IMG/VR virus record: IMGVR_UViG_3300025030_000184
Span: 1 to 45,684 of that record
Direction: 5' to 3' (one strand)
Source of the DNA: a virus
Length of the DNA stretch: 45,684 nucleotides
The notes below the pieces were generated by a model. That model was not told the origin of the DNA and did no database searches. It saw only the letters and a program-made list of their open reading frames with translations. The position numbers were made by a program, and so were the translations under genes. Of the stretch, positions 1,298 through 45,684 are shown piece after piece (within the stretch, counting starts at the first letter, position 1; each line of letters opens with the position of its first letter).

Positions 1298-2206
1298 ATG
1301 GCAATAGCGACTAACACATATACTACTTACGATACGGCGGGTATGAGGGAAGACCTCATAGACGTAATCAGCAACATAGACCCCGTATCTACGTGGTTTC
1401 AGAGTAACATAGGCAATGCAAGGGCTTCACAGAGATACCATGAGTGGCTTCTTGATGCACTCGCCGCTCCTGCCGCCAATGCACAGATAGAAGGCAATCA
1501 GTTGACGGCGACTGCGATTGTTCCGCCTGTAAGGTCGGGCAATTACTGCCAGATTCTGAGCAAGTCTTTTTCGATAACTGAAACCGAAGAAGTTACGGAT
1601 AAGGCTGGTAGAAATTCAGAGGTTGCATATCAGAAAGCGAATAAACTTAAAGAACTCGCCAACGATATAGAATACGCTCTGATTATCAATGCCAGCGCGG
1701 TTTCGGGCGGCACGGCTACGGCAAGACAGTTGAAAGGATTGTCGGGCTGGATAACTTCTAACAACATTACCGGAACAGGCACGGAAAGTCAGCCTCTTAC
1801 CGAGACGTTGTGGAATGACGGCTTGCAGACCGTATGGAACGCAGGAGGTAAACCCTCTAATTGCCTTATGGGTGCGTTCCAGAAACGCAAGGTTGATGCA
1901 TTTACGAGCAATACCAAGAACGTAAATGCCGACCAGAACAAACTTATCAACCATATCTCGATTTACGAATCGCCATTTGGGACGGTTGCCTTAAGAATAC
2001 ACCACATTATGCAGAGCGATGTTCCGAGCAAAATCTTCATTCTCGGCGACATGAAACTGTGGAAGAAAGCGTATCTCAGACCGTTGCAGTGGAAGGATTT
2101 GCCATACACGGGTTTTGCGAGATTCTTGGGGTGTGAAGCGGAACTTACCCTCGAATCAAGAGCAGAAGCGGGGTCTGGCGTAATCGCCGAATTAACCACG
2201 AGTTAG
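1298..2206 (+). CDS. Major capsid protein (SU10/DUF5309-like)
   Basis: A 302-residue protein following the scaffold with an AAGGAGGT ribosome site. It resembles the SU10-type/DUF5309 capsid family: an N-terminal arm with the DVISNIDPV-type motif, a central KAGRNSEVAYQKANKLKELANDIEYAL helix region (spanning about residues 100-128), then a domain with SGWI and a C-terminal LGDMKLWKKAYLRPLQ-type segment near 247-262. This family forms HK97-fold capsids. Length and position (portal, small protein, scaffold, capsid) agree. Two hairpins follow the stop codon and may set transcript levels. Confidence 0.85.
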   Translation: MAIATNTYTTYDTAGMREDLIDVISNIDPVSTWFQSNIGNARASQRYHEWLLDALAAPAANAQIEGNQLTATAIVPPVRSGNYCQILSKSFSITETEEVTDKAGRNSEVAYQKANKLKELANDIEYALIINASAVSGGTATARQLKGLSGWITSNNITGTGTESQPLTETLWNDGLQTVWNAGGKPSNCLMGAFQKRKVDAFTSNTKNVNADQNKLINHISIYESPFGTVALRIHHIMQSDVPSKIFILGDMKLWKKAYLRPLQWKDLPYTGFARFLGCEAELTLESRAEAGSGVIAELTTS

Positions 2207-2266: not shown

Positions 2267-2572
2267 ATGATTTTCAGAAGTGGTAACGTGCAAGATAAGG
2301 CGATTATAGACATAAACCACAAGGGCGAAAAAATTTCCTTCACCCATGTTGGGGTGATTGACGATGCCGCACAGGAAGCATATCTTAATAGGATGTATTC
2401 CAATAATGGATTTTCGGATAAGAAACTATTTAGGAAGGTGGCAGTGATACCTGATTGGGTATTCGTTGTTCACCCAGAATTTAATCAAGACCCTGATTTG
2501 GCGTTAGATTGGGTAAGAAAGAATGGCGATGGGATAGGGCAAAACTTTAAGGCTTGCACGGGAAAATTTTAA
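2267..2572 (+). CDS. Hypothetical protein, 101 aa
   Basis: Small soluble protein with a Trp-rich C-terminal half and no recognised domain. It lies between the capsid gene and the glycosyltransferase cassette, and its stop overlaps the next start (TAATG at 2570-2574). A weak AGAAGG site precedes the ATG, and that sequence is also the 3' arm of the second post-capsid hairpin, so folding of that hairpin would compete with ribosome binding. Function unknown. Confidence 0.7.
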   Translation: MIFRSGNVQDKAIIDINHKGEKISFTHVGVIDDAAQEAYLNRMYSNNGFSDKKLFRKVAVIPDWVFVVHPEFNQDPDLALDWVRKNGDGIGQNFKACTGKF

Positions 2573-3582
2573 TGAAACCTCATATAGTATTTGTTAGCGA
2601 AAAATGGTGCGATTGCAGACCCGAAATGGGTTTGACGAATAGTTTCCATAACCTCTTCGGTTCTTTGGAATCAACGGGATTAGCGGAATATTCTAATATC
2701 TTTTTCGACGAATGGAATATCAAATATGGTAAAAAATGCGACGAAGAAGTTTTAAGACAAGGATTAGAGGCTGATTTGGTGGTCGTTACACCTCTTAATG
2801 GTATTCACCATTTGCCTAATATCCAGACTTTCGGTAAGATTAAAGATGCCGGTATTCCCGTAGTTGCTATCCATTTTGACAGCGTTAGTCCAAAAAATCT
2901 TGCTTATGCGGATAGTATGCTCCCGCAGATAAATTTTAATGTGGTTTTGGATTCGGGAATATCGTATTCAAATTCATTGCACAGTAATAGATATGTTCCA
3001 TTATGGACTCCACAAGACCCTCGGATATTCCATAATCCAAATAAGAAACGGGATATAGCGATAAGTCATCTCGGAACTACGGAAGGCCGTCCTGAAAGAG
3101 AAAATTCGCTTAACTTTATCGGGTCAAGAGATATAAAGATTTATTCGAGAGGCGGACAAAGAAAAGATAATATCCCTATCGAAGAATATGCCGATATTTT
3201 ACAAAGGTCTTTAATTACACTTAATTGGTGCGAAAATAAAGATTTTAAGCAGTTAAAAGGTAGGATATTCGAGGCAATGTTATGCGGTGCTTGTCTATTT
3301 GAATCGGAGAATGATGAAATTAAAAAGTATTTCATTGAAAATGAAGATTACGTTTCATTCAAGGGACGTAATTCGGAAGTTCTTGCCTGTATGTTGCGGG
3401 GTTATATTGAAGATAAAAAAGAAGTAGAACGCATAGCAAAGAATGGATATAAAAAAGCAACGGCATATTACAATGCTGAGAATTTTTGGCGAACTATTTT
3501 CCAGAAAGCGGGGGTAAATGGATATAGACATATTGATACCGACTTCAAAGAAGCGATTACAGAAATTGCTTTGGCAAATTAG
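2572..3582 (+). CDS. CgeB-like glycosyltransferase
   Basis: A 336-residue GT-B type protein. The C-terminal part around residues 215-275 has the CgeB/Glyco_trans_1_2 pattern: LNWCENK, then KGRIFEAMLCGACLF followed by an acidic segment that normally contacts the nucleotide-sugar. The N-terminal half has alternating beta/alpha segments typical of the acceptor domain. I start it at ATG 2572, which overlaps the preceding stop; an in-frame ATG at 2554 lies inside the previous gene. First of three consecutive glycosyltransferase genes. It probably moves a sugar onto a virion protein, host glycan or DNA base; the acceptor is unknown. Confidence 0.8.
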   Translation: MKPHIVFVSEKWCDCRPEMGLTNSFHNLFGSLESTGLAEYSNIFFDEWNIKYGKKCDEEVLRQGLEADLVVVTPLNGIHHLPNIQTFGKIKDAGIPVVAIHFDSVSPKNLAYADSMLPQINFNVVLDSGISYSNSLHSNRYVPLWTPQDPRIFHNPNKKRDIAISHLGTTEGRPERENSLNFIGSRDIKIYSRGGQRKDNIPIEEYADILQRSLITLNWCENKDFKQLKGRIFEAMLCGACLFESENDEIKKYFIENEDYVSFKGRNSEVLACMLRGYIEDKKEVERIAKNGYKKATAYYNAENFWRTIFQKAGVNGYRHIDTDFKEAITEIALAN

Positions 3583-4129
3583 GAGTTGTTTCAATCAAGG
3601 TCTTGATGTTCGCGTTACCATTGCTTCAACAGGAGAATACCCCGAATTGTTGGAGCAGTTGACAGAAGCAGAAAAAGGCAAGATGAGATTTATTACAGAC
3701 GCTCCTGAGGGATTATGCGGGAACGCCGCTTCTAAATATGTAATGGAGAATTTTGAATGGGGGGAATGGTTTTACTCGATAGGAGATGATGACGCATTGC
3801 TTCCGTGGGGATTGAAGCATTTATGGGATAATAGACACGGCGTGGGAATGGTTATAGGACGGGCTTTATGTGTAAGCAAGGGACAGAACCTTGACTTAAC
3901 GCAATATAGGGTCGGCACTATTCTTGCTTGCGGCAGAGTAAGCGGAGTATGCACATTATTCAATTTCAGAAAGGTTGAAAAACTTGGCATACCTTATTGG
4001 AACGCTAATAGTATGGTAGCCGATTGGGAACTCATAGAGAAAATGGCGGAGAATTATAAATATAAGATTATACCCGAAACGGTTTGTGTTCTTGCTTTAG
4101 CGACTGTGCAGGGGGAAAAATGCGAATAA
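3518..4129 (+). CDS. GT-A-like glycosyltransferase
   Basis: A 203-residue protein with a GT2-like start (MDIDILIPTSKKR, then RVTIAS) and a DDD metal-binding motif in SIGDDDALLPWG near residues 87-98, the expected DxD of GT-A folds. It is shorter than usual GT2 enzymes (about 240-300 residues), so it may be a minimal catalytic domain. Its first 65 bases overlap the 3' end of the upstream glycosyltransferase in another frame, so the genes are coupled. A few ATG-containing bases separate it from the next glycosyltransferase, whose start at 4120 it overlaps. Confidence 0.65.
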   Translation: MDIDILIPTSKKRLQKLLWQIRSCFNQGLDVRVTIASTGEYPELLEQLTEAEKGKMRFITDAPEGLCGNAASKYVMENFEWGEWFYSIGDDDALLPWGLKHLWDNRHGVGMVIGRALCVSKGQNLDLTQYRVGTILACGRVSGVCTLFNFRKVEKLGIPYWNANSMVADWELIEKMAENYKYKIIPETVCVLALATVQGEKCE

Positions 4130-5217
4130 CATATTTCTTGGCGGATAATGGAGCATGTGGTATTTACCGTCTCGATAATCCATTATTAGAAGTCAAGAAA
4201 TCGGGTCTGGCTAAAGTATGGCGGATAGATAAAGGCGATAGTATCGTGAAAAATATAGATTGCCTTGAAGCCGATATATTCGTAATGCCGCGTATGTGTG
4301 GCGAAGATATGCAAAGGAATATGAAAAAACTCCAAAACGGAGGTAAGAAGTTAATAATTGACCATGACGATTTCTTATTTGATATTCAACCTCTTATGAG
4401 GGCTTATAGTGAATTTGGAACAAAAGAAGTCAAGTATAAAATGCCCAACGGCGACATCATGGATTTATGGCAGGACGGCAAGAATATCAATTTACAAGAA
4501 AATATTGAAAGACTTAATGGTGTTGCAAAAGCATTAAAACAGGCGGATATGGTTACTGTTACGACTGATATACTTGCCGAGGCATACAAGAAGTATAATC
4601 CTAATGTGGTGGCATTGCCGAATTGTATTGATATGGATTTATGGAAGCAATTACCATTGAAAAGAGAAAACGACGAGATTAGATTATATTGGGGCGGCGG
4701 GGATAGTCATTACGGCGATTGGATGTTAATGCCCAATGTCCTGAAGGCAGTAATGGATAAATACGAGAATGTAAAACTTATCATACAGGGAACTTTATTT
4801 AAGGCTTCGATAAAAGATTTACCGCAGGACAGGATAGAACATCATGGATGGGTGAATACTCATGCTTACCCATACAAAACGGCGATTTTAGACCCTGATA
4901 TTGCGATTATTCCGCTTGAAGATACATTGTTTAATCGGTGTAAGAGTAATATAAAGTGGGTTGAGATGTCGGCATTAGGTGTGCCATGTGTAACCTCTTA
5001 TGTATCACCATACAAAGAATATGCGGCAGAAAATAATGGAATTTTTATTGAGAATAACGATAAAGACGCATGGGTAGATGGGATTTCTTACATGATAGAC
5101 AACGTGGATACAAGAAAAGAGTTTGCAGGTAATGCAAAGAAAATAGTCGCAGAGCATTTCGACATTAAAACGCAATATCCGAGATGGATAAAAGCGTATG
5201 AAGGATTAGGAGTCTAA
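4120..5217 (+). CDS. GT-B glycosyltransferase (GT4/group 1-like)
   Basis: A 365-residue protein. The N-terminus has the YFLADNGACGIYRLDNP pattern seen in phage and bacterial group-1-like transferases. The C-terminal domain has LYWGGGDSHYGDW near residue 187 and a late KSNIKWVEMSALGVPCVTS segment (around 275-292), the donor-binding E-x7-E-like region. I place the start at 4120, because it has a GGGGGAAAA ribosome site; an earlier in-frame ATG at 4084 lies within the preceding gene. Last gene of the sugar cassette, 1 base before the adaptor gene, so it belongs to the structural operon. Confidence 0.8.
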   Translation: MRITYFLADNGACGIYRLDNPLLEVKKSGLAKVWRIDKGDSIVKNIDCLEADIFVMPRMCGEDMQRNMKKLQNGGKKLIIDHDDFLFDIQPLMRAYSEFGTKEVKYKMPNGDIMDLWQDGKNINLQENIERLNGVAKALKQADMVTVTTDILAEAYKKYNPNVVALPNCIDMDLWKQLPLKRENDEIRLYWGGGDSHYGDWMLMPNVLKAVMDKYENVKLIIQGTLFKASIKDLPQDRIEHHGWVNTHAYPYKTAILDPDIAIIPLEDTLFNRCKSNIKWVEMSALGVPCVTSYVSPYKEYAAENNGIFIENNDKDAWVDGISYMIDNVDTRKEFAGNAKKIVAEHFDIKTQYPRWIKAYEGLGV

Positions 5218-26710: not shown

Positions 26711-26729
26711 GATACCTCCTTTTAATTTG

Positions 26730-27296
26730 TTATAATAAAAATCCTCTTTCTTGCATATATACTATCGGGTGCTTTGCACCTTTACGAAAATTACAACTTG
26801 CCCGTAAGAGCTGTATATTACAATCTTCATTTCTACCGCCAAGTGAAAGTGGTATTATATGGTCGAGATTAAAGTTATTCCCCAATGGTTTACAACAACA
26901 AATACATTTACCTTTTTGCCGCTTATAAAGTTTCTTTGCTAAATCTTTGGATAATATGCCACCATTAACAATCTTGGAAGCACGATAATTTTGTCCATAA
27001 ATACGTCTTTTTTCGAGATTAGCAACTTGCCATGCTCTTTTGCCAGTCTTTAGTTTTTCAGGATTAGCAATACCCCATGCTGCCCGTGCGGCTTTTGCTT
27101 TTTCAGGATTAGCGATACGATGTGCGCGACTCGAAGCTTTCACTTTTTCAGGATTAGCAATCCGCCATGTTTTCCCCGCGGCCTTTACTTTTTCGGGGTT
27201 AGCGATACGGTATGTGCGGCTAATTGCCCTATGGCATATCTTACAAACACCGCTCTTATACCGCTCTAAACTCTCACATTTTATACAAGGTTTCAT
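26730..27296 (-). CDS. HNH homing endonuclease with five IANPEK repeats (paralogue 1)
   Basis: A 188-residue protein. The N-terminal 28 residues hold a C-x2-C...C-x2-C zinc site. Residues 29-103 are five 15-residue repeats of WRIANPEKVKASSRA type, probably short helices that track along DNA. The C-terminus is an HNH domain with CICC, LDHIIPLSLGG and CNFRKGAKHP. Two paralogues lie at 27721 and 30423 with different repeats. It forms a cassette with a 41-residue zinc ribbon and a strong promoter. Confidence 0.85.
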   Translation of the reverse strand: MKPCIKCESLERYKSGVCKICHRAISRTYRIANPEKVKAAGKTWRIANPEKVKASSRAHRIANPEKAKAARAAWGIANPEKLKTGKRAWQVANLEKRRIYGQNYRASKIVNGGILSKDLAKKLYKRQKGKCICCCKPLGNNFNLDHIIPLSLGGRNEDCNIQLLRASCNFRKGAKHPIVYMQERGFLL

Positions 27297-27418
27297 ATTC
27301 CCTTCTTCCTATCCCAATATGGAGATTTACATTTTGGACAAATACGGATTTCCGTTTTTCTCGGAATCCATTTGTGTCCACATCTTTTACAATTAAGTTT
27401 AGCAATATTTATTTTCAT
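27293..27418 (-). CDS. Zinc-ribbon mini-protein of HNH cassette 1, 41 aa
   Basis: MKINIAKLNCKRCGHKWIPR then ICPKCKSPYWDRK: CKRC...CPKC ribbon. The ATG at 27418 is 6 bases after a -10 box and has no ribosome site, so it is predicted to be translated leaderless. Its stop overlaps the HNH start (ATGA), so it would feed ribosomes to the nuclease. A homologue stands before paralogue 2. Confidence 0.7.
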   Translation of the reverse strand: MKINIAKLNCKRCGHKWIPRKTEIRICPKCKSPYWDRKKGI

Positions 27419-27424
27419 AAGATA

Positions 27425-27453
27425 AGTATAACCTATAAGTAAATCGCAGTCAA
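27425..27453 (-). promoter_or_regulatory. Promoter of HNH cassette 1, leaderless layout
   Basis: Minus strand TTGACT (27448-27453), 17-base spacer, TATACT (27425-27430), then 6 bases to ATG 27418. Inserted between early genes, it makes the cassette independent of the operon promoter. Confidence 0.75.
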
Positions 27454-27696: not shown

Positions 27697-27720
27697 GTAA
27701 ATTCCCTCCTTAGAATTATT

Positions 27721-28299
27721 TTAAAGTAAAAACCCTTTTTTTTGCATATATATTACGGGGTGTTTTACACCTTTACGAGAATTACACTCCGCCCGTAAAA
27801 GTTGTATATTCCAATCCTCATTTTTACCACCAAGAACAAGTGGCATGATATGGTCGAGATGATAATCATTATTTAATGGTTTGTGGCAACAAACACATTT
27901 CCCTTTTTGTCGCTTATACAACCTTTCTGATAAACCCTTTGAGAGCATTCCTCCAGCAGAAAGTTCACGAGCACGACGATTTTGTTTATAAATACGCATT
28001 ATTTTAGGATTTGCTTTTCGCCATTTAACAAAATAAATAGCAGTTTGCTTTTTTATTTTCTCTTGATTGATAATCCGCCATTTATTTGTTCTGGTTTTTA
28101 CTTTTTCACGATTAGCAATTTGCCATGCTCTTTTATAAACCTTTACTTTTTCACGATTAGCAATTTGCCATGCAACAAATATGGTTTTCATTTTATCGGG
28201 ATTTGCTTTTCGCCATTTAGCACATCTTATCCTTGCACATATTTTACAATCACCGTTTTTATATCGTTCTAAATTCCCACATTTTATGCAAGATTTCAT
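27721..28299 (-). CDS. HNH homing endonuclease (paralogue 2)
   Basis: A 192-residue paralogue of the 26730 protein. N-terminal C-x2-C...C-x2-C, then five W-x-x-ANx-x-K repeats, of which the fourth is extended by four residues (KKQTAIYFVK). The HNH domain has CVCC, LDHIMPLVLGG and CNSRKGVKHP. Repeat units differ from paralogue 1 (IANREKVK against IANPEKVK), so specificity may differ. Preceded by its own zinc-ribbon gene and promoter. Confidence 0.85.
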   Translation of the reverse strand: MKSCIKCGNLERYKNGDCKICARIRCAKWRKANPDKMKTIFVAWQIANREKVKVYKRAWQIANREKVKTRTNKWRIINQEKIKKQTAIYFVKWRKANPKIMRIYKQNRRARELSAGGMLSKGLSERLYKRQKGKCVCCHKPLNNDYHLDHIMPLVLGGKNEDWNIQLLRAECNSRKGVKHPVIYMQKKGFLL

Positions 28300-28424
28300 G
28301 CTCCCTTCCTCTTATCCCACCAAGCGGATTTACACTTGGGGCATATTCTTATTTCTTTATTACGAGGATTCCACGCATACCCACATCTTTTGCATTTCAG
28401 TTGTTTGGTTATTTTTATTTTCAT
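28296..28424 (-). CDS. Zinc-ribbon mini-protein of HNH cassette 2, 42 aa
   Basis: MKIKITKQLKCKRCGYAWNP then ICPKCKSAWWDK, clearly related to the 27293 protein. No ribosome site; ATG is 6 bases after the -10 box. The stop overlaps the HNH start by ATGA. Likely leaderless and coupled. Confidence 0.7.
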   Translation of the reverse strand: MKIKITKQLKCKRCGYAWNPRNKEIRICPKCKSAWWDKRKGA

Positions 28425-28430
28425 AATTTA

Positions 28431-28459
28431 AGTATACCTTATAAGTTTACTTATGTCAA
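28431..28459 (-). promoter_or_regulatory. Promoter of HNH cassette 2, leaderless layout
   Basis: Minus strand TTGACA (28454-28459), 17-base spacer, TATACT (28431-28436), 6 bases to ATG 28424. It lies just after a good ribosome site (AAAGGAGGCG) and a dead-end ATG, suggesting that the cassette cut into an existing gene junction. Confidence 0.75.
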
Positions 28460-30422: not shown

Positions 30423-30944
30423 TCATAACAAAAATCCTTTTTCTTGCATATATACTATCGGGTGTTTTGCACCTTTACGAGAATTACACTCTGCCCGTAA
30501 GAGTTGTATATTCCAATCTTCATTTTTACCGCCAAGAGCAAGTGGCATTATATGGTCAAGGTGGTAGTTACTGCCTAATGGTTCATAACAACAAGCACAT
30601 TTACCTTTTTGCTGTTTAAAAAGTTTATCTGATAAATCTTTCGATAGTATACCGCCATTGGAAAGTTTGCGAGCACGACGATTGTGCCAATAAATACGCC
30701 TTTTTTCGGGGTTCGCAATCTTCCATGTCCTTTCACATGCTTTCCTTTTTTCGGGGTTCGCAATCTTCCATGTTCTATTATACGCTCGCATTCTTTCGGG
30801 ATTCGCAATCTGCCATACTCTATTGCGCGCTGTATGTTTTTCGGGGTTAGCAATCTGCCATGCACGGTTTAATCTTCTGTGGCATACCCTACAATGCCCA
30901 TATTTATTCCGTTCTATTGCGCCACATTTTTTGCACGGTTTCAT
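30423..30944 (-). CDS. HNH homing endonuclease (paralogue 3)
   Basis: A 173-residue paralogue with N-terminal CKKC...CRVC, four 15-residue W-x-IANPEK repeats (about residues 29-88) and an HNH domain with CACC, LDHIMPLALGG and CNSRKGAKHP. I start at 30944; a longer frame extends upstream but lacks a start of its own and overlaps a better leader gene. Unlike the other two copies it has no zinc-ribbon partner; a 40-residue leader gene precedes it instead. Confidence 0.85.
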   Translation of the reverse strand: MKPCKKCGAIERNKYGHCRVCHRRLNRAWQIANPEKHTARNRVWQIANPERMRAYNRTWKIANPEKRKACERTWKIANPEKRRIYWHNRRARKLSNGGILSKDLSDKLFKQQKGKCACCYEPLGSNYHLDHIMPLALGGKNEDWNIQLLRAECNSRKGAKHPIVYMQEKGFLL

Positions 30945-36545: not shown

Positions 36546-37031
36546 ATGAGCATACAAGATATAGACCCCGCAGAACTTGAGCGCGTTAGTAAGGACGTTA
36601 AGCGGTCAGCTCCAAAGCGTATCCCCATCGAAGATATTCTTGAACTTCGGAATAAACAGTTAAACGGCCGTCAAATCGCGCAGTTACTCGGTTGCAGTGA
36701 AGTTACAATCAGCAGAAGGTTGAAAGCGTATACACCTATTTTCGCCCGGCTCGACCGTTTCAAAAAGCATCGTGCCGACCTCCTCACCCTCAAACAAGCT
36801 GACATACTGCGTTCTATCACCGATAAGGACATCAGAGAGGCCAGTCTCTTACAGCGTGCCACCACTCTTGGTATCCTGCACGACAAGGAACGCTTGGAAC
36901 GCGGGTTGTCCACGAGCAACGTTGACATACATAGCGAGATTCGTTCTTCAATCGAGCGAGTTGAGGCGATAAGGGCGTTGATAGCAGAGGGGGGTGGGGA
37001 GAGAGGGGGCGATGGTGGTGGGAATGAATAA
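36546..37031 (+). CDS. Putative terminase small subunit
   Basis: A 161-residue protein with a helix-turn-helix at residues 39-62 (LNGRQIAQLLGCSEVTISRR), then a long charged helical region (65-140) and a Gly/Glu-rich end. This matches small terminases, which recognise the packaging site and oligomerise. It is two radical SAM genes, a hypothetical gene and two TPP genes away from the large subunit, an unusual separation. A transcription regulator is the alternative. Predicted leaderless start. Confidence 0.65.
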   Translation: MSIQDIDPAELERVSKDVKRSAPKRIPIEDILELRNKQLNGRQIAQLLGCSEVTISRRLKAYTPIFARLDRFKKHRADLLTLKQADILRSITDKDIREASLLQRATTLGILHDKERLERGLSTSNVDIHSEIRSSIERVEAIRALIAEGGGERGGDGGGNE

Positions 37032-37073: not shown

Positions 37074-38405
37074 ATGTCAACCACACTCATAGTCAACGTA
37101 GGGAATGATAGTTGTTATCAGGATTTGGATATTGCGATTGAACCTCCTTATTGGAGTATCATGCTTGGTAGTTACCTTGAAAGAATAGGGGAAAAGGTTC
37201 GGATACTCGACTTAAATTGCGAAGAATACTTTACAATAATGGTCGAGCTTGAAGAAGAAGGTGGGATAGCGGGGCGGTATGACAAATTCATTGTCCTTGC
37301 TCACGGGCATAATCCTTCGGCTTCTACGCAGTTAATGGATAGGGCTTTTGAGATTGGGCGGGGTTTAGGAAGATACGTGCGGCAAGGGCAATTTGTTTAT
37401 ATGGGTGGTGGTCATGTTGAGAGGAATCATATAACAGCAAGCGAGAGTTCGGGGTCTGCTCTCCCGCTTGCCGAAGGTGGGGTTTTACGGGAATGGGGGC
37501 GGGATAATTACGGGAGTAAAGAACAGCAGGAATTGAATTGGGATTTAGTGGATATGCGGCGGTATAGGGCGCACAACTGGCATTGTTTGGGGGGATTGGA
37601 TAGAGGCGGGTATGGCGTAATTTATACTTCATTCGGTTGTCCGTTTAACTGTGAGTATTGCTGTGTTGGCGGGAAGGGTATTAGTTTCCGTGATGTTAAA
37701 ATAGTTTTGAAGGATATAGATGGGTTGGTATTGCGTGGTATAAAGAACTTGAAGATTGCGGACGAGATATTCTTTTTCAAAAAGTCTCATTATATGCCAA
37801 TATTAGAAGGATTGGTTGAACGCAATTACGGATTGAATATCTGGTGTTATGCAAGACCCGATATGCTTGATTACGAGATTTTGGAATTAGCGAAGAAAGC
37901 AGGGATAAATTGGCTTGCATTAGGCATCGAGGGAACGAGGGACGGTAAATGCGGGAAGGATATAGGAACAGTTGTTAAGACGATACAGGATTCGGGGATT
38001 AATGTTATCGGGAATTATATGTTTGGTTTGGTGGGCGACACCTTCGAGTCTATGCAGGCCACTCTTGATTTGGCATTGGAATTGAATTGTGAGTATGCTA
38101 ACTTCTATTGTGTTATGGCATATCCGGGGTCGAGATTATACGAAAAAGAATTGGCTAAAGGTAGTCATGCGAGATTGCCTTTAACGTGGTCGGGTTATGG
38201 ACAGTATTCGATTGATAGTATGCCTTTGCCTACCGAGTCTCTTTCTTCGGCGGATATTCTTTTATTCAGGGATAATGCCTTCAATGAGTATTTCAATTCG
38301 CCGAAATATTTGGATATGATACGGGCAAAATTCGGTGAAGATACCATGAATGGAATAAAACGCACGGCAAGCATACGATTAAGGAGGGCTGATGGAGTGG
38401 TCTGA
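37074..38405 (+). CDS. Radical SAM enzyme with B12-binding-like N-domain
   Basis: A 443-residue protein. N-terminal 110 residues follow the cobalamin-domain pattern (EPPYWSIMLGSYLERIGEKV) but lack the DxHxxG cobalamin ligand, so B12 may not be bound. The radical SAM core has CPFNCEYC (Cys 189, 193, 196) for the 4Fe-4S cluster, then GxE-like LALGIEGT, and YMFGLVGDT in the barrel end. Such BchE/elongator-like enzymes methylate, cyclise or isomerise. AAAGGAG precedes ATG. It overlaps the next gene by 14 bases. Confidence 0.85.
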   Translation: MSTTLIVNVGNDSCYQDLDIAIEPPYWSIMLGSYLERIGEKVRILDLNCEEYFTIMVELEEEGGIAGRYDKFIVLAHGHNPSASTQLMDRAFEIGRGLGRYVRQGQFVYMGGGHVERNHITASESSGSALPLAEGGVLREWGRDNYGSKEQQELNWDLVDMRRYRAHNWHCLGGLDRGGYGVIYTSFGCPFNCEYCCVGGKGISFRDVKIVLKDIDGLVLRGIKNLKIADEIFFFKKSHYMPILEGLVERNYGLNIWCYARPDMLDYEILELAKKAGINWLALGIEGTRDGKCGKDIGTVVKTIQDSGINVIGNYMFGLVGDTFESMQATLDLALELNCEYANFYCVMAYPGSRLYEKELAKGSHARLPLTWSGYGQYSIDSMPLPTESLSSADILLFRDNAFNEYFNSPKYLDMIRAKFGEDTMNGIKRTASIRLRRADGVV

Positions 38406-39477
38406 TGAGTTCAACAGTTTCAATAGTTGGAAGGGATTGCTCTACGCACCACATTATGAAAATATAGCGCAATGGGGTTCGGGGAAGAAAAAAGGGTTGC
38501 TTTTATTGCCTCCTATCGAGGCTTCGTTAGACCCGATAGAACAATGTCAGTTAGCGTGCAACCATTGTAACGCAGGGCGGTATTTGGGAAAAGACGGACG
38601 GCGGATGTCCGATAAACATATACTTGATTTGGTGGCGTATTTGGCAGTATGGGGTGTTAAGGCAATATGCTTCGGTGGTGGTGGCGAACCAAGTCTTCAT
38701 ACGGCATTGCCAAAGGCCATTACCGTTACGAAACAACATGGATTGGAATCTTCGGTTGCTACAAACGGAATTATAATGACTGCCGAATTATTCGAGGCGT
38801 ATAAACTTTGTAGGTGGATTGGTGTATCTGTTGATGCAGGAACGGCTAAAACTTATACTATCGGAAGAAAAGGCGGATATTTTGGTATCACTATAAAGAA
38901 TATCGCACGATTAGCCAAAATACGCAATGATGTATCTTTCAAATTCCTTATTTTCGATTATAATCAGCATGAGATATTCGAGGCTTGCAAACTTGCCAAA
39001 GAACTTGGCGTTGGTAGTTTCCATGCCCGACCAGCCGATATGCGCCATCAAGGGATGTCAAGCCCAACAGTCGGTGGGTATTACGATGTAGAGAAGATTA
39101 ATGAGCAGTTGGCGAAGTGCAGGGAATTAGAAGATGACCGTTTTAAGGTCTTTACGGTAACACATAAATTTGAGAAAGATTTTACTCCGAAAAGAAACTT
39201 TTCTCAATGTTATGCCTCTCCTATTTGCATACAACTATCACCTGATGGGAATATATATCTATGTCCCGATACTCGGCATATTGATTTCTACAAACTCGGT
39301 AGCCATGAGAACGTCGAGGATATAGGGAAAGTATGGGGAAGTAAGAAGCATTACGACCTCGTGTTCAAGAATGGTTGTGGTAATTGTAATTCACGTTGCA
39401 CATTTTCGTCTTACAATCGTCAATGCGAGAAGTTATTTATAAACGGCGATGACCCTTTTTGCCGTAATTTTGTTTAA
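38392..39477 (+). CDS. Radical SAM/SPASM-type enzyme
   Basis: A 361-residue protein with CQLACNHC (Cys 52, 56, 59) and GGGGEP (95-100), the cluster and SAM-binding motifs. The C-terminal 95 residues hold seven or more Cys (CYASPICIQLSPDGNIYLCP, then CGNCNSRC and later C), the SPASM pattern that binds extra Fe-S clusters in enzymes modifying peptides, sugars or tRNA. Its pairing with a second radical SAM gene and TPP enzymes indicates a small biosynthetic pathway. Confidence 0.85.
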   Translation: MEWSDEFNSFNSWKGLLYAPHYENIAQWGSGKKKGLLLLPPIEASLDPIEQCQLACNHCNAGRYLGKDGRRMSDKHILDLVAYLAVWGVKAICFGGGGEPSLHTALPKAITVTKQHGLESSVATNGIIMTAELFEAYKLCRWIGVSVDAGTAKTYTIGRKGGYFGITIKNIARLAKIRNDVSFKFLIFDYNQHEIFEACKLAKELGVGSFHARPADMRHQGMSSPTVGGYYDVEKINEQLAKCRELEDDRFKVFTVTHKFEKDFTPKRNFSQCYASPICIQLSPDGNIYLCPDTRHIDFYKLGSHENVEDIGKVWGSKKHYDLVFKNGCGNCNSRCTFSSYNRQCEKLFINGDDPFCRNFV

Positions 39478-39487
39478 GGAGGATTTC

Positions 39488-39883
39488 ATGGAAAGAGATT
39501 TAGGCGATATTCTCGATAGGCAAAGCATAGCAAAGTTGAAGGCCGCAAGAATAGGTTTAGACGAGAATATCAGAGAATACGAAGCGTTCTCTAATCGAAT
39601 TTCCAAACAATATGATTTTGATATAGAGATGTTTTTCAAACTCATATTGAAATTAAATGGTTTTATATGGGATTTGGAATCGGCATTAAAAAGCGGTAAA
39701 GATAATCTTAAAGAACCACATTACCTTTTTTCAAATAACAACAACCCTCAACTTATTCAAATTGGCATAATATCAATCCTTATCAGGAATATTAATAGTG
39801 TAAGGGTTGATGTTAAAAATATCGTGAATAATTTGGCGAAGGAAGGTTTCACCGATGTCAAGAAAAACCATATCTCTGAGTAA
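39488..39883 (+). CDS. Hypothetical helical protein, 131 aa
   Basis: Start at 39488 behind AAGGAGGATTTC; an upstream in-frame ATG at 39449 lies inside the SPASM gene. Mostly helical (LDRQSIAKLKAARIG, then FKLILKLNGFIWDLE). Its last 29 bases overlap the E1-alpha-like gene. It could be a partner of the biosynthetic enzymes, or unrelated. No motif recognised. Confidence 0.6.
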   Translation: MERDLGDILDRQSIAKLKAARIGLDENIREYEAFSNRISKQYDFDIEMFFKLILKLNGFIWDLESALKSGKDNLKEPHYLFSNNNNPQLIQIGIISILIRNINSVRVDVKNIVNNLAKEGFTDVKKNHISE

Positions 39884-40436
39884 ATTCAGCGAGAAGGTAG
39901 GAGAACTCTATGAAGCGGGTGAAATCAAATCTCCGATACATTTATCAGGTGGGAACGAAAAACAGTTGGAGGAAATCTTCAAGACGCATTATAGAAAAGG
40001 TGATTGGATATGTTCAACACATAGAAGCCATTATCATTGGCTTTTATCAGGACATAATGAAGAAGATTTATTGAAACAAATCCTCGATGGGCATAGTATG
40101 CATATATTCGGAGAACAGTTCGTAACGTCTGCTATTGTAGGCGGTATTGCTCCGATAGCGGTTGGTATCGCAATGGGATTAAAAGCGCATAAGTCAAAGA
40201 ATAAGGTCTTATGTTTTATCGGGGACTCTGCATCTTATTGCGGTATAACATTGGAATCCATAAGATATTCAAGAGGGCATAATCTGCCGATTTTATTTAT
40301 TGTGGAAGATAACGATAAAAGCGTAAGGGCGAATACACTTGATACATGGGGATTAGGATTCGAACATAAAGAAACTGAATATTTTTACGATATGAAATAT
40401 CCTCATGCCGGAACGGGAACGTATGTCATATTCTGA
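39855..40436 (+). CDS. E1-alpha-like thiamine-diphosphate subunit, shortened
   Basis: A 193-residue protein. It retains the E1-alpha signatures of pyruvate/acetoin dehydrogenases: STHRSHYHWLLSG (54-66), GHSMHIFGEQ (79-88), a Gly/Ala helix (GIAPIAVGIAMGLK), and the TPP motif GDSASY (123-128) with an EDND end near 151-154. Normal subunits have 320-370 residues, so this is about half size. The following gene supplies the matching beta-like half. No E2 or E3 gene is present, so it may decarboxylate and transfer an acyl or aldehyde unit rather than feed a dehydrogenase complex. Confidence 0.75.
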   Translation: MSRKTISLSKFSEKVGELYEAGEIKSPIHLSGGNEKQLEEIFKTHYRKGDWICSTHRSHYHWLLSGHNEEDLLKQILDGHSMHIFGEQFVTSAIVGGIAPIAVGIAMGLKAHKSKNKVLCFIGDSASYCGITLESIRYSRGHNLPILFIVEDNDKSVRANTLDTWGLGFEHKETEYFYDMKYPHAGTGTYVIF

Positions 40437-40953
40437 TTATCATAGTAGAATATGTTTTTGGATGAAAGAAATTGCATCCATGGATAATACGATATTCTTA
40501 GGGCAACAAGTTGCTTCGGAAGATTTTTATGGAACACTTAAAGACGTAGATATAACGAAAAGACTTGAAATGCCCGTGGCAGAGGATATGCAAACAGGAC
40601 TTGCCATAGGTCTTTCGTTACAGGGATTTTTACCTATAAGCATTTATCAGAGAATGGACTTCTTACCGAGAGCGGCAGACCAGATTATCAATCATCTTGA
40701 CTTATTGTCTCATTTAAGTCGTAATTGTTTTGAACCACAAGTCGTTATCAGAACTACCGTAGGGACAACGAATCCGTTGAATGTGGGAGTGCAACATAGT
40801 AAAGACCTTACGAAAATGTTTAAGGGAGTAGTCGGTTTTGAGATTTTCAACGTGCGAACAATAAGAGACATTGATGAAGCATACTCATACGCAATACATA
40901 CTAAAAGACCTTCAATGATAGTGGAATATCAGGAATTATATGTCGGACATTGA
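40423..40953 (+). CDS. E1-beta-like thiamine-diphosphate subunit, shortened
   Basis: A 176-residue protein with the E1-beta core: RLEMPVAEDMQTGLAIGLSL (residues 48-67) containing the expected essential Glu54, LPRAADQIINHLDLLS and VVIRTTVG. It lacks the C-terminal transketolase domain of normal beta subunits (about 325 residues). I use ATG 40423, which overlaps the alpha-like stop; another in-frame ATG at 40405 is possible. With its partner it would form a miniature alpha2-beta2 enzyme. The next gene starts 14 bases before its end. Confidence 0.75.
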   Translation: MSYSDYHSRICFWMKEIASMDNTIFLGQQVASEDFYGTLKDVDITKRLEMPVAEDMQTGLAIGLSLQGFLPISIYQRMDFLPRAADQIINHLDLLSHLSRNCFEPQVVIRTTVGTTNPLNVGVQHSKDLTKMFKGVVGFEIFNVRTIRDIDEAYSYAIHTKRPSMIVEYQELYVGH

Positions 40954-42565
40954 TAAAAAAATCCTCATCGCTAAACTTGCGGAAGAAGAAAAATTCCTCG
41001 ATGCTTTAATTACTAAAGCGAAAGATATAGACCCTTTCTGGTATTGGATACCTAATGACGGCATTATCACCGATGAAGCAAGAGAAGTCTTACGGAAATA
41101 TCTTAAAGAAGAAGATATACCCGATAAGGTTGATAGTCAATTAGATAGATTGTTATGCCGCTCTGAAGTCGTTGGAGTGTCAGGTGGTAATAGGTCATCT
41201 AAAACGAATTGTGATACTATTGACGGCATTATAAAATCTACGGGTGAATTACCGTATAGCATGGAAAAATACGGGAAAGAATTTGAAGATGTGATAAAAA
41301 GAGCACATAGTAAAATCATCAAAGGGCGGGTTACAGGTGTAGATAATAAACAATTACATAGGGTCGTGTTGCCGATGTGGCAAAGATATATCCCGAAGAA
41401 ATATCTCAAAAAGGGAGATTGGGACAAGAGTTATTCGAGGGAATTTGACATTTTGACACTATACAGAGATGACAAACCATGTTCGGTTATTGAGTTTCTT
41501 ACCAATGAACAAGCTGTTAAGAGCGCACAAGGCGGGGATTTAGATTGGGCTAAATTCGATGAAGAACCCGATAGGGATAAATGGAAAGAGACACTTATGC
41601 GGTTTGGAACTGCCGATAAACTCGACATTTCAATCGCATGGACTCCTACCGAAGGTCTTACTTGGGCGACTGATTTATTCCATAACGGCATTATAAATTC
41701 GAGTGGTAAGGAATTATCCACTTCTTTATTCAAATTTTCGTCTGTTACAAACCCATATGTTAATAAGAATACCTTGCTTGCCATAATGGACGAGTTCGCA
41801 AAAGTATCGAGTTATGACGAGATGAAAATGCGTTTACTTGGCGAGGCCATAAGTTTAAGTGGACTTGTTTATGGCGGATTGTTCCACGTGGAACATATTA
41901 TCGAACCATTCTTTGAGAACCTCCCAGAAGATAAAAAGAGTGAATACATTGTATTGGCTGGCATAGACCCACACGCCGTAACTGCGACCGCAATGGTCTT
42001 TATCCTAATAGATAGAGAAGGTATAGCCTATCTTGACAGGTGTTATTTCAGACAATCGGATACCGATGAGATAAAGAGGGATTTTTGGGCGATAGTATTG
42101 TCAAACAAATACAGACCTGCTTGGTCTGTTTGTGATAAGTCAGCAGATTCGTCAATCATAGCCTTTGGCGGACGTAATATATTCGAGGAGATAAAACGAC
42201 CTACATACGAACACAATACAAATCCGCTTGTCGTAAAGTATAAGGGACTTCCTGCATTGAGGACTTCCGAAAAATTTGAAGGCAGTATCAAGGCGGGGGT
42301 TGATACTATCAAAAGACGTTTGAAGGAAAAAAGGTTATTTGTTGTAAATCGTCCCGAAAACAGTGAGTTAATCAAATCGTTCCGAACACTCGAAAGGGAT
42401 ACTTATGCCGATGAGGATAAAAGTGGCACTAAAGATAGAATACGGGAAGGAAGACATCATCTCCACGCCGCAATGCGGTATTGTTTCCAATTCCCTATAC
42501 ATTGGTATCCAGAGAAAGTTTATATACCCGAACCCGAAATGATTGACGAAGTAGTGTGTTGGTAA
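40940..42565 (+). CDS. Terminase large subunit
   Basis: A 541-residue protein with Walker A-like SGGNRSSKT (81-89) and Walker B GGDLDWAKFDEEPD (around 198-211), the ATPase that drives DNA into the capsid. The C-terminal half has an RNase H-like nuclease (AGIDPHAVTATAMVF near 325-339, CDKSADSS later). Length is typical. Its start overlaps the E1-beta-like gene by 14 bases, so terminase is translated from the same message as the metabolic module. Confidence 0.92.
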   Translation: MSDIDKKILIAKLAEEEKFLDALITKAKDIDPFWYWIPNDGIITDEAREVLRKYLKEEDIPDKVDSQLDRLLCRSEVVGVSGGNRSSKTNCDTIDGIIKSTGELPYSMEKYGKEFEDVIKRAHSKIIKGRVTGVDNKQLHRVVLPMWQRYIPKKYLKKGDWDKSYSREFDILTLYRDDKPCSVIEFLTNEQAVKSAQGGDLDWAKFDEEPDRDKWKETLMRFGTADKLDISIAWTPTEGLTWATDLFHNGIINSSGKELSTSLFKFSSVTNPYVNKNTLLAIMDEFAKVSSYDEMKMRLLGEAISLSGLVYGGLFHVEHIIEPFFENLPEDKKSEYIVLAGIDPHAVTATAMVFILIDREGIAYLDRCYFRQSDTDEIKRDFWAIVLSNKYRPAWSVCDKSADSSIIAFGGRNIFEEIKRPTYEHNTNPLVVKYKGLPALRTSEKFEGSIKAGVDTIKRRLKEKRLFVVNRPENSELIKSFRTLERDTYADEDKSGTKDRIREGRHHLHAAMRYCFQFPIHWYPEKVYIPEPEMIDEVVCW

Positions 42566-42641: not shown

Positions 42642-44531
42642 ATGAAAAAAGAAAACTTAACCGAAGATTTTATAGAAAACAGAGGGCGTTCTCTTTTTAC
42701 GATTTCACGTAATTGGATTGCCGAAACAGTAGTGCCACGTTGGAAGGATAGTAACGATTTATACAATAGCAAATTTAAGAAACAAAAAGATGGTAAATCC
42801 GATATTCTTATCGGACAGGGTAAATTATTCATTCCCAAGACTTATTCCCATGTTCAAAGAATGTTGGTTGATATTCTCGATACATATTTTTTAGACCCCG
42901 AAGAAATAGTTGATGTAACATCATGGAAAAATATCCCTTCCGCGACAAGAGAAATTGTTAAAGCTTTAATGAATTATCGTCTTAATGGACATCCCATCAA
43001 TTTTTACCAAGAATCCTATGAAGCCTGTCTTGATGCTCTAAAAAACAAGGTGGGCATATTCAAAGTCTATCCTAATATCAAAACCGAGAAAACCAAAGTT
43101 CAGATTCCTAATCCTGCCAATCCGCTTGAAACTATCGAAGAAGAAAAGGAAGTCGTAACCGCTTTCAATCCATGTATTGACTGTTTACCATATGAAGACG
43201 TATTTTTTAGTCCAAATGCCACATGGAAAGATTATTGGCGATTCCCGATAGTCCACAGAATGAGGAAACCTTTGGATTATCTTAAACGCAGAGGTTATAA
43301 AAATCTCGATGACCTCGAATCCATGCATAATTCGGAAGGTGTTGACGAGATTAAAGAACAGAGAACATCGGATATGGGGTCGCCTTTTTCCAATAACCAA
43401 GATGTTTCGGTAAATGGGCAAAACGAAATCTTCATATATGAATTTTGGGACTTTCTCGATGTGAATGGCGATGGACTTTTGGAATCATGCAGTTATATCA
43501 TGGCCGGAACAGCCGATACCGCAACTCGTCTTATTCGAGATGTGGAAGAAAATACACTGCCTTATATAACGCATGGAGACGATTACAATAGGTCGCCTAT
43601 TATCATGGGGCAATCCTTCCCCGAACCTCATCAGTTAATGGGGAAAGACCTACCTGAAATTGTGGAAGGTTTACAGAGAGAAACTAACGCGATAAGGAAT
43701 CAACGCAGAGAAGCCGTCGCACTCGCACTTCGCAAACCTATTCTTATCAATAGGAGTGCGAATATAGACCTTGTGGGGTTATTGAATAGACGTATCGGCG
43801 GAATAGTGCAAGGGGACGATATATCACTTTCGAGTGTAAGGGAAATGGATATATCAGACCCTACAAGTCAAAGTATTGCCGAAATGGCAAAGGTTGACAC
43901 GGATTTTTACGAAACAACTTCCGTTCCTCCTAATCTTCTGGGTATGCCGTCATCTTCGGACGAAACAGCGACTGCCGTTACGAGTCAGGTTGCGAACGCC
44001 AATAAGAAGATAGCCAACGTAATACGGAATCTTGCTTATACGCTCTTTATACCTTCCTTACGTATGCTTTTAAGACTTGAACAGATGTATGAAAACGATA
44101 ATTATATTCAGATGGTTACGGGACGGATATTGGGATGGAAAATGGCGATGGACGAAATGCCTGCAATCGAGATTATACAGGGTGATTTCGACTTATCCGT
44201 CAATATCGGAATGAATAAACAGACGCAAATAAACAAGTGGCTAATGTTGTTCGATAGAGGTGTTCAAGCGAACCAAGCAATAATAGGGATGTTGCAGGCA
44301 GGGGTTGTTAATCCTGCCAATGTCCACTTCGTTGATACTATGAAGTTTTATCATAAAATGCTTCCTCTTGTTGGCGAAAAGGCAGTCGAAGAATATATGA
44401 TTGCGGCGCAGGCCTCCCCACAGGAAGGAATGGCAAGCGGTGTGGCAAGTCAACCAAGATTACCGGAACAATTAACGGGAGAAGTGGGTAGCATGAACCC
44501 CGAAGGTATGCAAGGAATGGTAAATGTTTGA
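42642..44531 (+). CDS. Portal protein
   Basis: A 629-residue protein directly after the large terminase, the usual order. It shows portal-like features: an N-terminal SRNWIAETVVPRWKDSNDLY region, a beta domain around 140-300, a central NQRREAVALALRKPI segment (about 353-367), then FYETTSVPPNLLGMPSSSDE (about 424-443) with a helical stem and the tunnel-loop area. Twelve copies would form the ring through which DNA passes. The gene end at 44531 is repeated at window start. CAGGAGTTAA precedes ATG. Confidence 0.88.
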   Translation: MKKENLTEDFIENRGRSLFTISRNWIAETVVPRWKDSNDLYNSKFKKQKDGKSDILIGQGKLFIPKTYSHVQRMLVDILDTYFLDPEEIVDVTSWKNIPSATREIVKALMNYRLNGHPINFYQESYEACLDALKNKVGIFKVYPNIKTEKTKVQIPNPANPLETIEEEKEVVTAFNPCIDCLPYEDVFFSPNATWKDYWRFPIVHRMRKPLDYLKRRGYKNLDDLESMHNSEGVDEIKEQRTSDMGSPFSNNQDVSVNGQNEIFIYEFWDFLDVNGDGLLESCSYIMAGTADTATRLIRDVEENTLPYITHGDDYNRSPIIMGQSFPEPHQLMGKDLPEIVEGLQRETNAIRNQRREAVALALRKPILINRSANIDLVGLLNRRIGGIVQGDDISLSSVREMDISDPTSQSIAEMAKVDTDFYETTSVPPNLLGMPSSSDETATAVTSQVANANKKIANVIRNLAYTLFIPSLRMLLRLEQMYENDNYIQMVTGRILGWKMAMDEMPAIEIIQGDFDLSVNIGMNKQTQINKWLMLFDRGVQANQAIIGMLQAGVVNPANVHFVDTMKFYHKMLPLVGEKAVEEYMIAAQASPQEGMASGVASQPRLPEQLTGEVGSMNPEGMQGMVNV

Positions 44532-44868
44532 TACGGTTAAAAGGTTATTTTCGAGGAACTTTGAACTCACGGAGAATATACTTATTTTGCGTGAACAGGT
44601 TCAGGTAGGGCAAAGATTACAGGAAGTGCTTGAAGGAAAAGATTTCGCAACGATAAGAGAACATATCCTTTTGCCATTGCAAGTTGGAGCATTTGAGACT
44701 TTCAAGAAAGTAGATGCGAAAGATTTTGCACGAGTCATGGAAACGCAGATGATGTCCAAGATGATAGATACGATACGGAAGGAGATTGAAAAGAAAATCA
44801 ATCAAGGGCGTTTAGCCGAACAACAAATGAAATCTCTACCCGAATTATCGGGCGAGGAGGAGGAGTAA
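44524..44868 (+). CDS. Small conserved head-region protein, right copy
   Basis: A 114-residue allele of the gene at 68-412, starting within the last codons of the portal gene. Differences from the left copy include I for V near residue 21, A for E near 69, R for H near 96, M for I near 102 and E for D at the end. The substitutions are mild and the frame is intact, which indicates selection on both copies in their populations. Confidence 0.75.
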   Translation: MFDTVKRLFSRNFELTENILILREQVQVGQRLQEVLEGKDFATIREHILLPLQVGAFETFKKVDAKDFARVMETQMMSKMIDTIRKEIEKKINQGRLAEQQMKSLPELSGEEEE

Positions 44869-44869
44869 C

Positions 44870-45684
44870 ATGAATACCGAACAAAATGGTTCTACTACCA
44901 CCGAGCAAGCGAGCCAGCAGATAAACGTAACGGAAAAACTTTTTGCCGATTTATTGCCGCCAGACGAGGTTAAAACTCCACCTGCGGAAAATAAAGAAGC
45001 GGAAGTGAAAGACGAACAAGAAACAAAGAAGGAAGTCGTGGAAACACCAGCACCTAAAGAACCCGAATACCTTGACGTTCAGGGCTTCGGAGACAAAAAG
45101 GTGAAAATAAAAGTAGATGGCGTGGAAACGGAGATTCCTTTCAAGGACGTTGTAAAAGGCTATCAGACGGAACAGTATCTCACTCGTAAAGGGCAAATGT
45201 TAGCCGAGGAGAAGAAGAAACTACACGAAACCCCACCGCCTCCGCCACATACAAAAGAGGACTATCTCGACCCGCTTATGGCTGATGAGATAGAACGCTT
45301 GAGTAAGGAATTGAAGACGGTAAAGGAATACAATGAGGCGACAATCTCAGAATTAGCACCAATCCGTTATGAGCGGAATTTGAGTGCCATAGATACCGAG
45401 ATGAAAACGGAAGGTCTGATTGATTTCAGGGAGAAAATTCCTGAAATTGAAAAGATTATTCTTGCTATGCCGCCCGAACAATCAACGGCTTACGATACTG
45501 CCGAGGGGTTCAAAAGCGTGTATAAGAATCTTAAACTCCAAGAATTAATAAAAAGGCCGCAGGTAAGCACTACCGTCATTAATCACGATGTGCGGCCAAA
45601 GCCGAAACTTGTCCCTATTGAGTCGAGTTCGAGTCCATCTGGTGGCGCAGTGAATAGTAACGCGGAGCGGAAAAAAGCATTTGC
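44870..45684 (+). CDS. Scaffolding protein, right copy, cut by window end
   Basis: Begins ATG 44870 and runs open to the window edge. It is the 5' part of a second allele of the 414-1277 scaffold gene, with the same acidic N-terminus, Pro run and helical region. It has one inserted codon and more amino-acid changes than the preceding small gene. Confidence 0.7.
   Translation, partial: MNTEQNGSTTTEQASQQINVTEKLFADLLPPDEVKTPPAENKEAEVKDEQETKKEVVETPAPKEPEYLDVQGFGDKKVKIKVDGVETEIPFKDVVKGYQTEQYLTRKGQMLAEEKKKLHETPPPPPHTKEDYLDPLMADEIERLSKELKTVKEYNEATISELAPIRYERNLSAIDTEMKTEGLIDFREKIPEIEKIILAMPPEQSTAYDTAEGFKSVYKNLKLQELIKRPQVSTTVINHDVRPKPKLVPIESSSSPSGGAVNSNAERKKAF

Follow-up and report, generated by a model that had tools for sequence, protein, structure and literature searches.

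Branched sugars can be built by a thiamine-dependent transfer of a two-carbon unit to a 4-keto sugar, as by YerE in yersiniose biosynthesis and in the scheme put forward for AviB (avilamycin) and paulomycin (PMC4753412, PMC4425429). These systems are the background for a five-gene module of a virus, IMG/VR record IMGVR_UViG_3300025030_000184, analyzed over its whole length of 45,684 bases (hereafter the window). The module stands between the genes of the small (TerS) and large (TerL) terminase subunits and encodes two radical S-adenosylmethionine (SAM) proteins, rSAM1 and rSAM2, a small helical protein, and two short halves of an E1-type thiamine enzyme, mini-E1 alpha and beta. We read it, with a probability of about 0.5, as a cassette making a carbon-branched sugar, in which mini-E1 would transfer two carbons to a keto sugar, the radical SAM proteins would tailor the product, and glycosyltransferases would attach it. 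Reaction, donor, acceptor and target are those that we infer from gene content, motifs, recurrence, partner genes and thiamine-enzyme swaps, all of which are observed.

Each described system shares part of this layout. AviB1/AviB2 and Pau11/Pau12, from branched octose biosynthesis, likewise form an E1-alpha/beta-like pair linked to keto-sugar chemistry, but they sit in antibiotic clusters and not in phages. The YerE/RfbH route to yersiniose has the same logic of a 4-keto sugar, a pyridoxamine phosphate (PMP)-dependent 3-dehydrase and a thiamine two-carbon transfer; YerE, however, is a single-chain flavoprotein, whereas mini-E1 consists of two separate short E1-family chains, and the yersiniose genes are of the CDP-glucose type while the cassettes related to that of the window carry genes of the GDP-heptose type. 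The kinase, guanylyltransferase, C4-dehydrogenase and C3-dehydratase of Campylobacter GDP-heptose modification (HddC, Cj1427, HS:5 C3-dehydratase) have homologues in related cassettes, but, to our knowledge, neither a thiamine enzyme nor a radical SAM partner is described for that system (PMC10680097).

Among phages, the family of both window halves, phrog_34187, occurs in cyanophages S-SM2 and P-TIM68, also in nucleotide-sugar clusters (epimerases, kinases, nucleotidyltransferases and phosphoheptose isomerases). There the protein is a fused single chain whose partners are a Zn alcohol dehydrogenase and a carbohydrate kinase, not rSAM1; in GenBank it is annotated “transketolase central region-containing protein”. 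An initial annotation, made from the window sequence, knew of no described phage system with this gene set. The kind of system is known, both as phage sugar cassettes and as thiamine-dependent sugar branching, and the unit itself is apparently undescribed, but the fused form of the cyanophages and radical SAM cassettes of pelagimyophages (PMC7029224) were already on record, with no function given.

A minimal E1 enzyme and its radical SAM partners

Each mini-E1 half matches phrog_34187 (Table 1). Together they hold the PP and PYR domains, the Mg motif and the catalytic Glu of 2-oxo acid dehydrogenase E1 enzymes, and both the best NCBIfam matches and the closest solved proteins are the alpha and beta subunits of pyruvate dehydrogenase (PDH) E1; the transketolase N and C models are not the best match of either half. 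The C-terminal domains of full-size E1 are absent: alpha covers positions 3-162 of the 300 of the E1_dh profile, and beta stops with PF02779, without a transketolase C-terminal domain. Beta is 182 amino acids long from the first ATG (40405-40953) and 176 from the ATG at 40423, as in its homologues. The Mg motif of alpha reads GDS...EDN, and the pattern GD[MGAS]...E[DN]N is retained in nearly all family members (GD in 121/122); in beta, E60, R83 and D85 are invariant, and PVxE is retained in most relatives. The thiamine motif and catalytic Glu that were first noticed in the window are thus kept across the family, and the active-site loss that would have spoken against a working enzyme is not seen.

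With an alignment as query, IMG/VR yielded ~495 relatives and GTDB genomes ~46 clear ones; single-sequence scans of IMG/VR gave only one relative each, so that alignment queries were needed. An alignment mixing fused and single E1-beta rows was misaligned and was left out of folding. The predicted model of a natural fusion, L048 (L numbers designate fetched loci), has a predicted local distance difference test score (pLDDT) of 84 and matches transketolase, DXS and PDH E1. Plasmid E1a matches were set aside as relatives, as they look like ordinary E1/AcoA enzymes. Fused forms of ~400 amino acids come mostly from Patescibacteria (L039, L040, L041, L045, L048, L049, L052); as in the cyanophages, a Zn alcohol dehydrogenase is found near the fused form in seven cellular loci and a sugar kinase in several.

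Could the pair be a plain decarboxylase, converting a 2-oxo acid to an aldehyde or acyl group that a different partner then uses, as small split sulfopyruvate or phosphonopyruvate decarboxylases do? Its subunit sizes and domain content resemble those of ComD/ComE, and 2-oxo acids are the substrates of E1 enzymes. The sequence, however, is E1-like rather than of the POX (pyruvate oxidase) type to which ComD/ComE belong: the top scores are those of PF00676 and PF02779, an N-domain of the POX type gives no match, and TPP_enzyme_C reaches just 9e-5. The neighbors, moreover, are sugar-nucleotide enzymes, with no phosphonate or coenzyme M genes noticed among them, which makes this explanation quite improbable.

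Both radical SAM proteins exceed the curated PF04055 cut-off and carry CxxxCxxC in the PF04055 core; in rSAM1 orthologues this motif and the DE-F motif are conserved. The predicted model of rSAM1 has an N-terminal alpha/beta domain and finds AprD4 (6fd2) as best match (E 4e-20), followed by TsrM. By sequence, the closest solved proteins are AprD4 and BlsE, enzymes whose substrates are sugars. AprD4 thus comes first by structure and by sequence, but at 16-17% identity its function is not transferred to rSAM1. The B12-binding domain PF02310 is detected in an rSAM1 orthologue (L015, 1e-17). In cultured phages, tblastn with rSAM1 gave no match.

The SPASM-like cysteines reported earlier for rSAM2 are present as C273-x12-G-x4-C291 (CX12GX4C) plus a further CxxC, but PF13186 stays under its cut-off (17.2 versus 21.5 bits). 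SPASM enzymes often act on peptides, and NCBIfam shows a weak resemblance of rSAM2 to several peptide maturases, so both proteins might modify a peptide or protein, either one similar to ribosomally synthesized and post-translationally modified peptides or a virion protein, the sugar-gene association being secondary. This is very unlikely: sugar enzymes lie beside rSAM1 in 48 of 57 loci (see below), the closest solved relatives by sequence act on sugars, and no gene for a precursor peptide came to light, although small open reading frames (ORFs) were not searched systematically. The rSAM2 orthologues of L037 (42% identity) and L098 (39%), and that of L154, accompany rSAM1, and a PMP dehydrase is found in none of these three loci; this is a small-number hint that rSAM2 takes over the dehydrase step, and with four loci it is too small to be claimed as a complementary pattern.

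Recurrence of rSAM1 with thiamine enzymes

The association of radical SAM proteins with mini-E1 extends far beyond the window. Radical SAM genes lie within 8 kb of E1 in 33/50 viral and 21/40 cellular non-redundant loci, and when ORFs around E1 are clustered, rSAM1 and rSAM2 of the window both fall in recurrent neighbor clusters. A scan with rSAM1 found ~354 viral relatives in IMG/VR; the best 80 of these 354 loci contain E1a in 56 cases and E1b in 50, usually in the order rSAM1-E1a-E1b and mostly adjacent, in a sample favoring that subclade, as the query alignment took in orthologues found beside E1. If only the counts are considered, two sets of 354 and 495 drawn from 2.9 million contigs would have ~0.06 contigs in common by chance. 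After removal of near copies, 57 non-redundant rSAM1 loci remain: mini-E1 is present within 8 kb in 41, a split transketolase pair in 4, and both in none (the chance of no overlap for the four transketolase loci is ~0.005, C(16,4)/C(57,4)). A consistent absence of co-occurrence, which would have undone the proposal, is decisively contradicted.

In the four transketolase loci (L154, L166, L207, L211) the split pair replaces mini-E1 beside rSAM1, and for L154, L166 and L207 NCBIfam assigns the swapped genes to the two halves of transketolase. The four loci lie apart on the rSAM1 tree, with L154 sister to L098 and L211 sister to L197, which amounts to at least four changes. Distances between rSAM1 proteins correlate with those between their E1a proteins (r 0.71; none of 2000 permutations as high). 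Of all the evidence, the swaps speak most strongly for a two-carbon transfer that mini-E1 supplies and that is used jointly with rSAM1.

The four-gene set rSAM1, rSAM2, E1a and E1b is found in a phage (L098) and in an archaeon (L037), and the core of rSAM1 and a minimal E1-type thiamine enzyme is common to phages, archaea and bacteria. The cassette is widespread in uncultured phages and some microbes, within sugar-making gene clusters. Other arrangements were also observed. In the 735-kb metagenomic phage LR756501 (L145), E1b, an rSAM2-like gene and E1a are consecutive. In a second mini-E1 locus type (L016, L017, L034, L035, L079, L081) the partners are an rSAM-SPASM gene and a further radical SAM gene, which is short (~290 amino acids). 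Phage contig L065 encodes a mini-E1 protein that is among the closest (55%) and also contains sequences similar to sialic-acid-type genes for a synthase and a cytidylyltransferase. Fuller cassettes than that of the window are present in L204 and L215. In L006, an rSAM1 homologue is followed by a methyltransferase and then a different terminase.

Sugar-pathway neighbors and the proposed reaction

The partners of rSAM1 in the 57 loci include an HddA-like kinase (17), a Cj1427-like C4-dehydrogenase (20), a 4,6-dehydratase (13) and a PMP-type dehydrase (28); a 4-keto-sugar-forming enzyme is present in 32, making it the commonest partner after the thiamine enzyme. The C4-dehydrogenases match 6vo6 (3e-116 and 3e-104), an entry named “putative sugar-nucleotide epimerase/dehydratase” that we take to be Cj1427. 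The DegT-fold proteins have His in place of the pyridoxal phosphate (PLP)-binding Lys in 51/51 cases, as retrieved by a hidden Markov model built from such proteins, with HH, HQ, HL or HI at the aminotransferase Lys position; the best PDB match of the one tested is a ColD-type dehydrase (2e-52). In Campylobacter, Cj1427 oxidizes the C4 position of GDP-heptose, after which a 3-deoxy-4-keto heptose is made by a PLP-dependent C3-dehydratase (PMC10680097). The gene content of the relatives thus suggests a GDP-sugar pathway to 3-deoxy-4-keto sugars, which would be acceptors of the kind that is branched in yersiniose and avilamycin biosynthesis.

The swaps also fit another chemistry, in which mini-E1 is of the transketolase type and passes a glycolaldehyde unit between sugar phosphates; the resulting heptulose or octulose would reach an NDP-heptose through the heptose kinase pathway, with no branching. 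HddA, GmhA and HddC-like genes near mini-E1 in many loci agree with this, as does the match of the fused model to transketolase and DXS besides PDH E1. We nevertheless consider it unlikely: sequence groups mini-E1 with E1, GmhA is near rSAM1 in just 1 of the 57 loci, mini-E1 and transketolase coexist in several loci, and enzymes forming 4-keto sugars are more frequent partners than any but the thiamine enzyme.

In the preferred, branched-sugar reading, the five genes would serve as a cassette for a glycan precursor, placed by insertion between TerS and TerL. The two E1 halves would form a minimal heteromeric thiamine diphosphate enzyme, without E2-binding and C-terminal domains. From a 2-oxo acid or a ketose this enzyme would take two carbons, as an acyl or ketol unit, and join them to the carbonyl group of a keto sugar carried on a nucleotide; the product would be a sugar with a carbon branch or a longer chain. 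The role of the enzyme may be likened to that of YerE in yersiniose and to that proposed for AviB1/AviB2 in avilamycin. Its conserved partner rSAM1 might act on the same sugar by radical chemistry, through either a 1,2-diol dehydration, as AprD4 does, or a C-methylation if cobalamin is bound. Further tailoring would fall to rSAM2, possibly in place of the PMP-dependent dehydrase of related cassettes. The product would then be put on the virion or the cell surface by host glycosyltransferases or by those that the phage encodes next to its capsid gene.

Several observations weigh against this reading. No HddA, Cj1427-like, 4,6-dehydratase, DegT or GmhA gene was found anywhere in the window; the complete pathway therefore rests on the relatives, and the acceptor sugar would have to be borrowed, presumably from the host. 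A thiamine enzyme is missing from 12 of the 57 rSAM1 loci, some of them cut by contig ends, and mini-E1 and split transketolase stand together in several SAR11-type loci, so that the two are not interchangeable everywhere. Unlike its L015 orthologue, the window rSAM1 has no B12-binding domain (PF02310) detected by Pfam, and it is divergent, with an end branch of 1.91 on the rSAM1 tree. The AviB homologues Pau11/Pau12 of paulomycin are full size (325/345 amino acids), unlike mini-E1, and we know of no mini-E1 protein whose activity has been assayed. The missing upstream enzymes and the long rSAM1 branch would also suit a decaying passenger acquired from another phage, its function lost. All five frames are intact, though, their overlaps are tight and their motifs are kept, the cluster cysteines of the divergent rSAM1 included, and small gene sets recur elsewhere (L098, L097); such decay is highly improbable.

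What the initial annotation proposed, an unusual carbon unit or a branched sugar, thus gains support from co-occurrence and from GDP-sugar and keto-sugar neighbors, and a substrate class can be predicted for several orphan enzyme families together. If the reading is true, phages bring their own sugar chemistry, beyond borrowing host sugars, and the cassette offers enzymes, open to direct assay, that would form carbon-carbon bonds on nucleotide sugars. The full proposal, that hundreds of uncultured phages carry a pathway in which a minimal thiamine ligase and its radical SAM partner turn GDP-heptose-like precursors into a chemically new, branched high-carbon sugar, placed on the capsid by glycosyltransferases encoded next to the capsid gene, is doubtful.

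Genome context and glycosyltransferases

The ORFs and Pfam matches bear out the first description of the module and its place between the terminase genes (Table 1). Its five ORFs are intact and tightly packed; rSAM1 starts after a gap of 42 bases from TerS, and successive genes overlap by 14-32 bases, including the 14-base overlap of the last gene with TerL.

Table 1. Features of the module, its borders and the capsid-adjacent region
Feature	Position	Strand	Evidence
Major capsid gene	1298-2206		phrog_1328, 5e-77
Glycosyltransferase (PF13524), just downstream of major capsid gene	2554..3582	+	5e-18
Candidate glycosyltransferase of the initial annotation, unconfirmed	3518..4129	+	no Pfam match; NCBIfam 0.03 only
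Glycosyltransferase (PF13692/PF00534)	4084..5217	+	5e-9; 37% identity to second half of 676-amino-acid L007 protein
TerS (probable), left border of insertion	36546..37031	+	helix-turn-helix; 44% identity to L007 protein at same place; weak PHROG terminase small subunit matches
rSAM1, N-terminal Rossmann (B12-type) domain, CxxxCxxC at 189-196	37074..38405	+	PF04055 4e-9
rSAM2, SPASM-like C-terminal cysteines	38392..39477	+	PF04055 4e-16; SPASM sub-threshold
Small helical protein, 144 amino acids	39449..39883	+	orphan; no homologue found
Mini-E1 alpha, PP (thiamine diphosphate/Mg) half	39855..40436	+	PF00676 6e-15; phrog_34187 N-half 1e-42
Mini-E1 beta, PYR half, catalytic Glu (PVAE)	40423..40953 (ORF open from 40405)	+	PF02779 1e-8; phrog_34187 C-half 8e-34
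TerL, right border	40940..42565	+	58-63% identity to proteins of five IMG/VR contigs

In the related phage L007, whose TerL, portal and capsid proteins are 63%, 54% and 50% identical to those of the window, the TerS-TerL interval lacks the module, which is therefore accessory; the glycosyltransferase downstream of the capsid gene is retained. The ends of the record (1-1220 and 44457-45679) repeat each other with 95% identity over 1.2 kb, so the genome is probably near-complete, at ~44.5 kb, and probably circularly closed or permuted and assembled from two variants.

Pfam recognizes two of the three glycosyltransferases initially listed. Glycosyltransferases encoded by a mycobacteriophage have been read as suggesting capsid glycosylation (PMC11256854), whereas the pelagimyophage study (PMC7029224) favors O-chain modification and locates its radical SAM cassettes within the region for host recognition. 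The target of the product would thus be the virion or a host cell-surface glycan. Attachment to DNA, also suggested at first, was dropped, since no sign of a base-modification pathway was seen among the proteins scanned. Similar sugar genes lie among virion genes in L098 (between apparently structural genes) and L204 (flanked by genes that are likely for capsid and tail), and in MW202801 an rSAM2-like gene and glycosyltransferases directly follow the capsid gene.

The helical orphan has no significant Pfam, PHROG or NCBIfam match and no BLASTP match outside the window among the fetched loci; its gene is low in GC (33%). Elsewhere, the minus strand carries three diverged copies (68-80% identity) of an HNH-endonuclease-like gene, at 26715-27440, 27705-28446 and 30425-30944.

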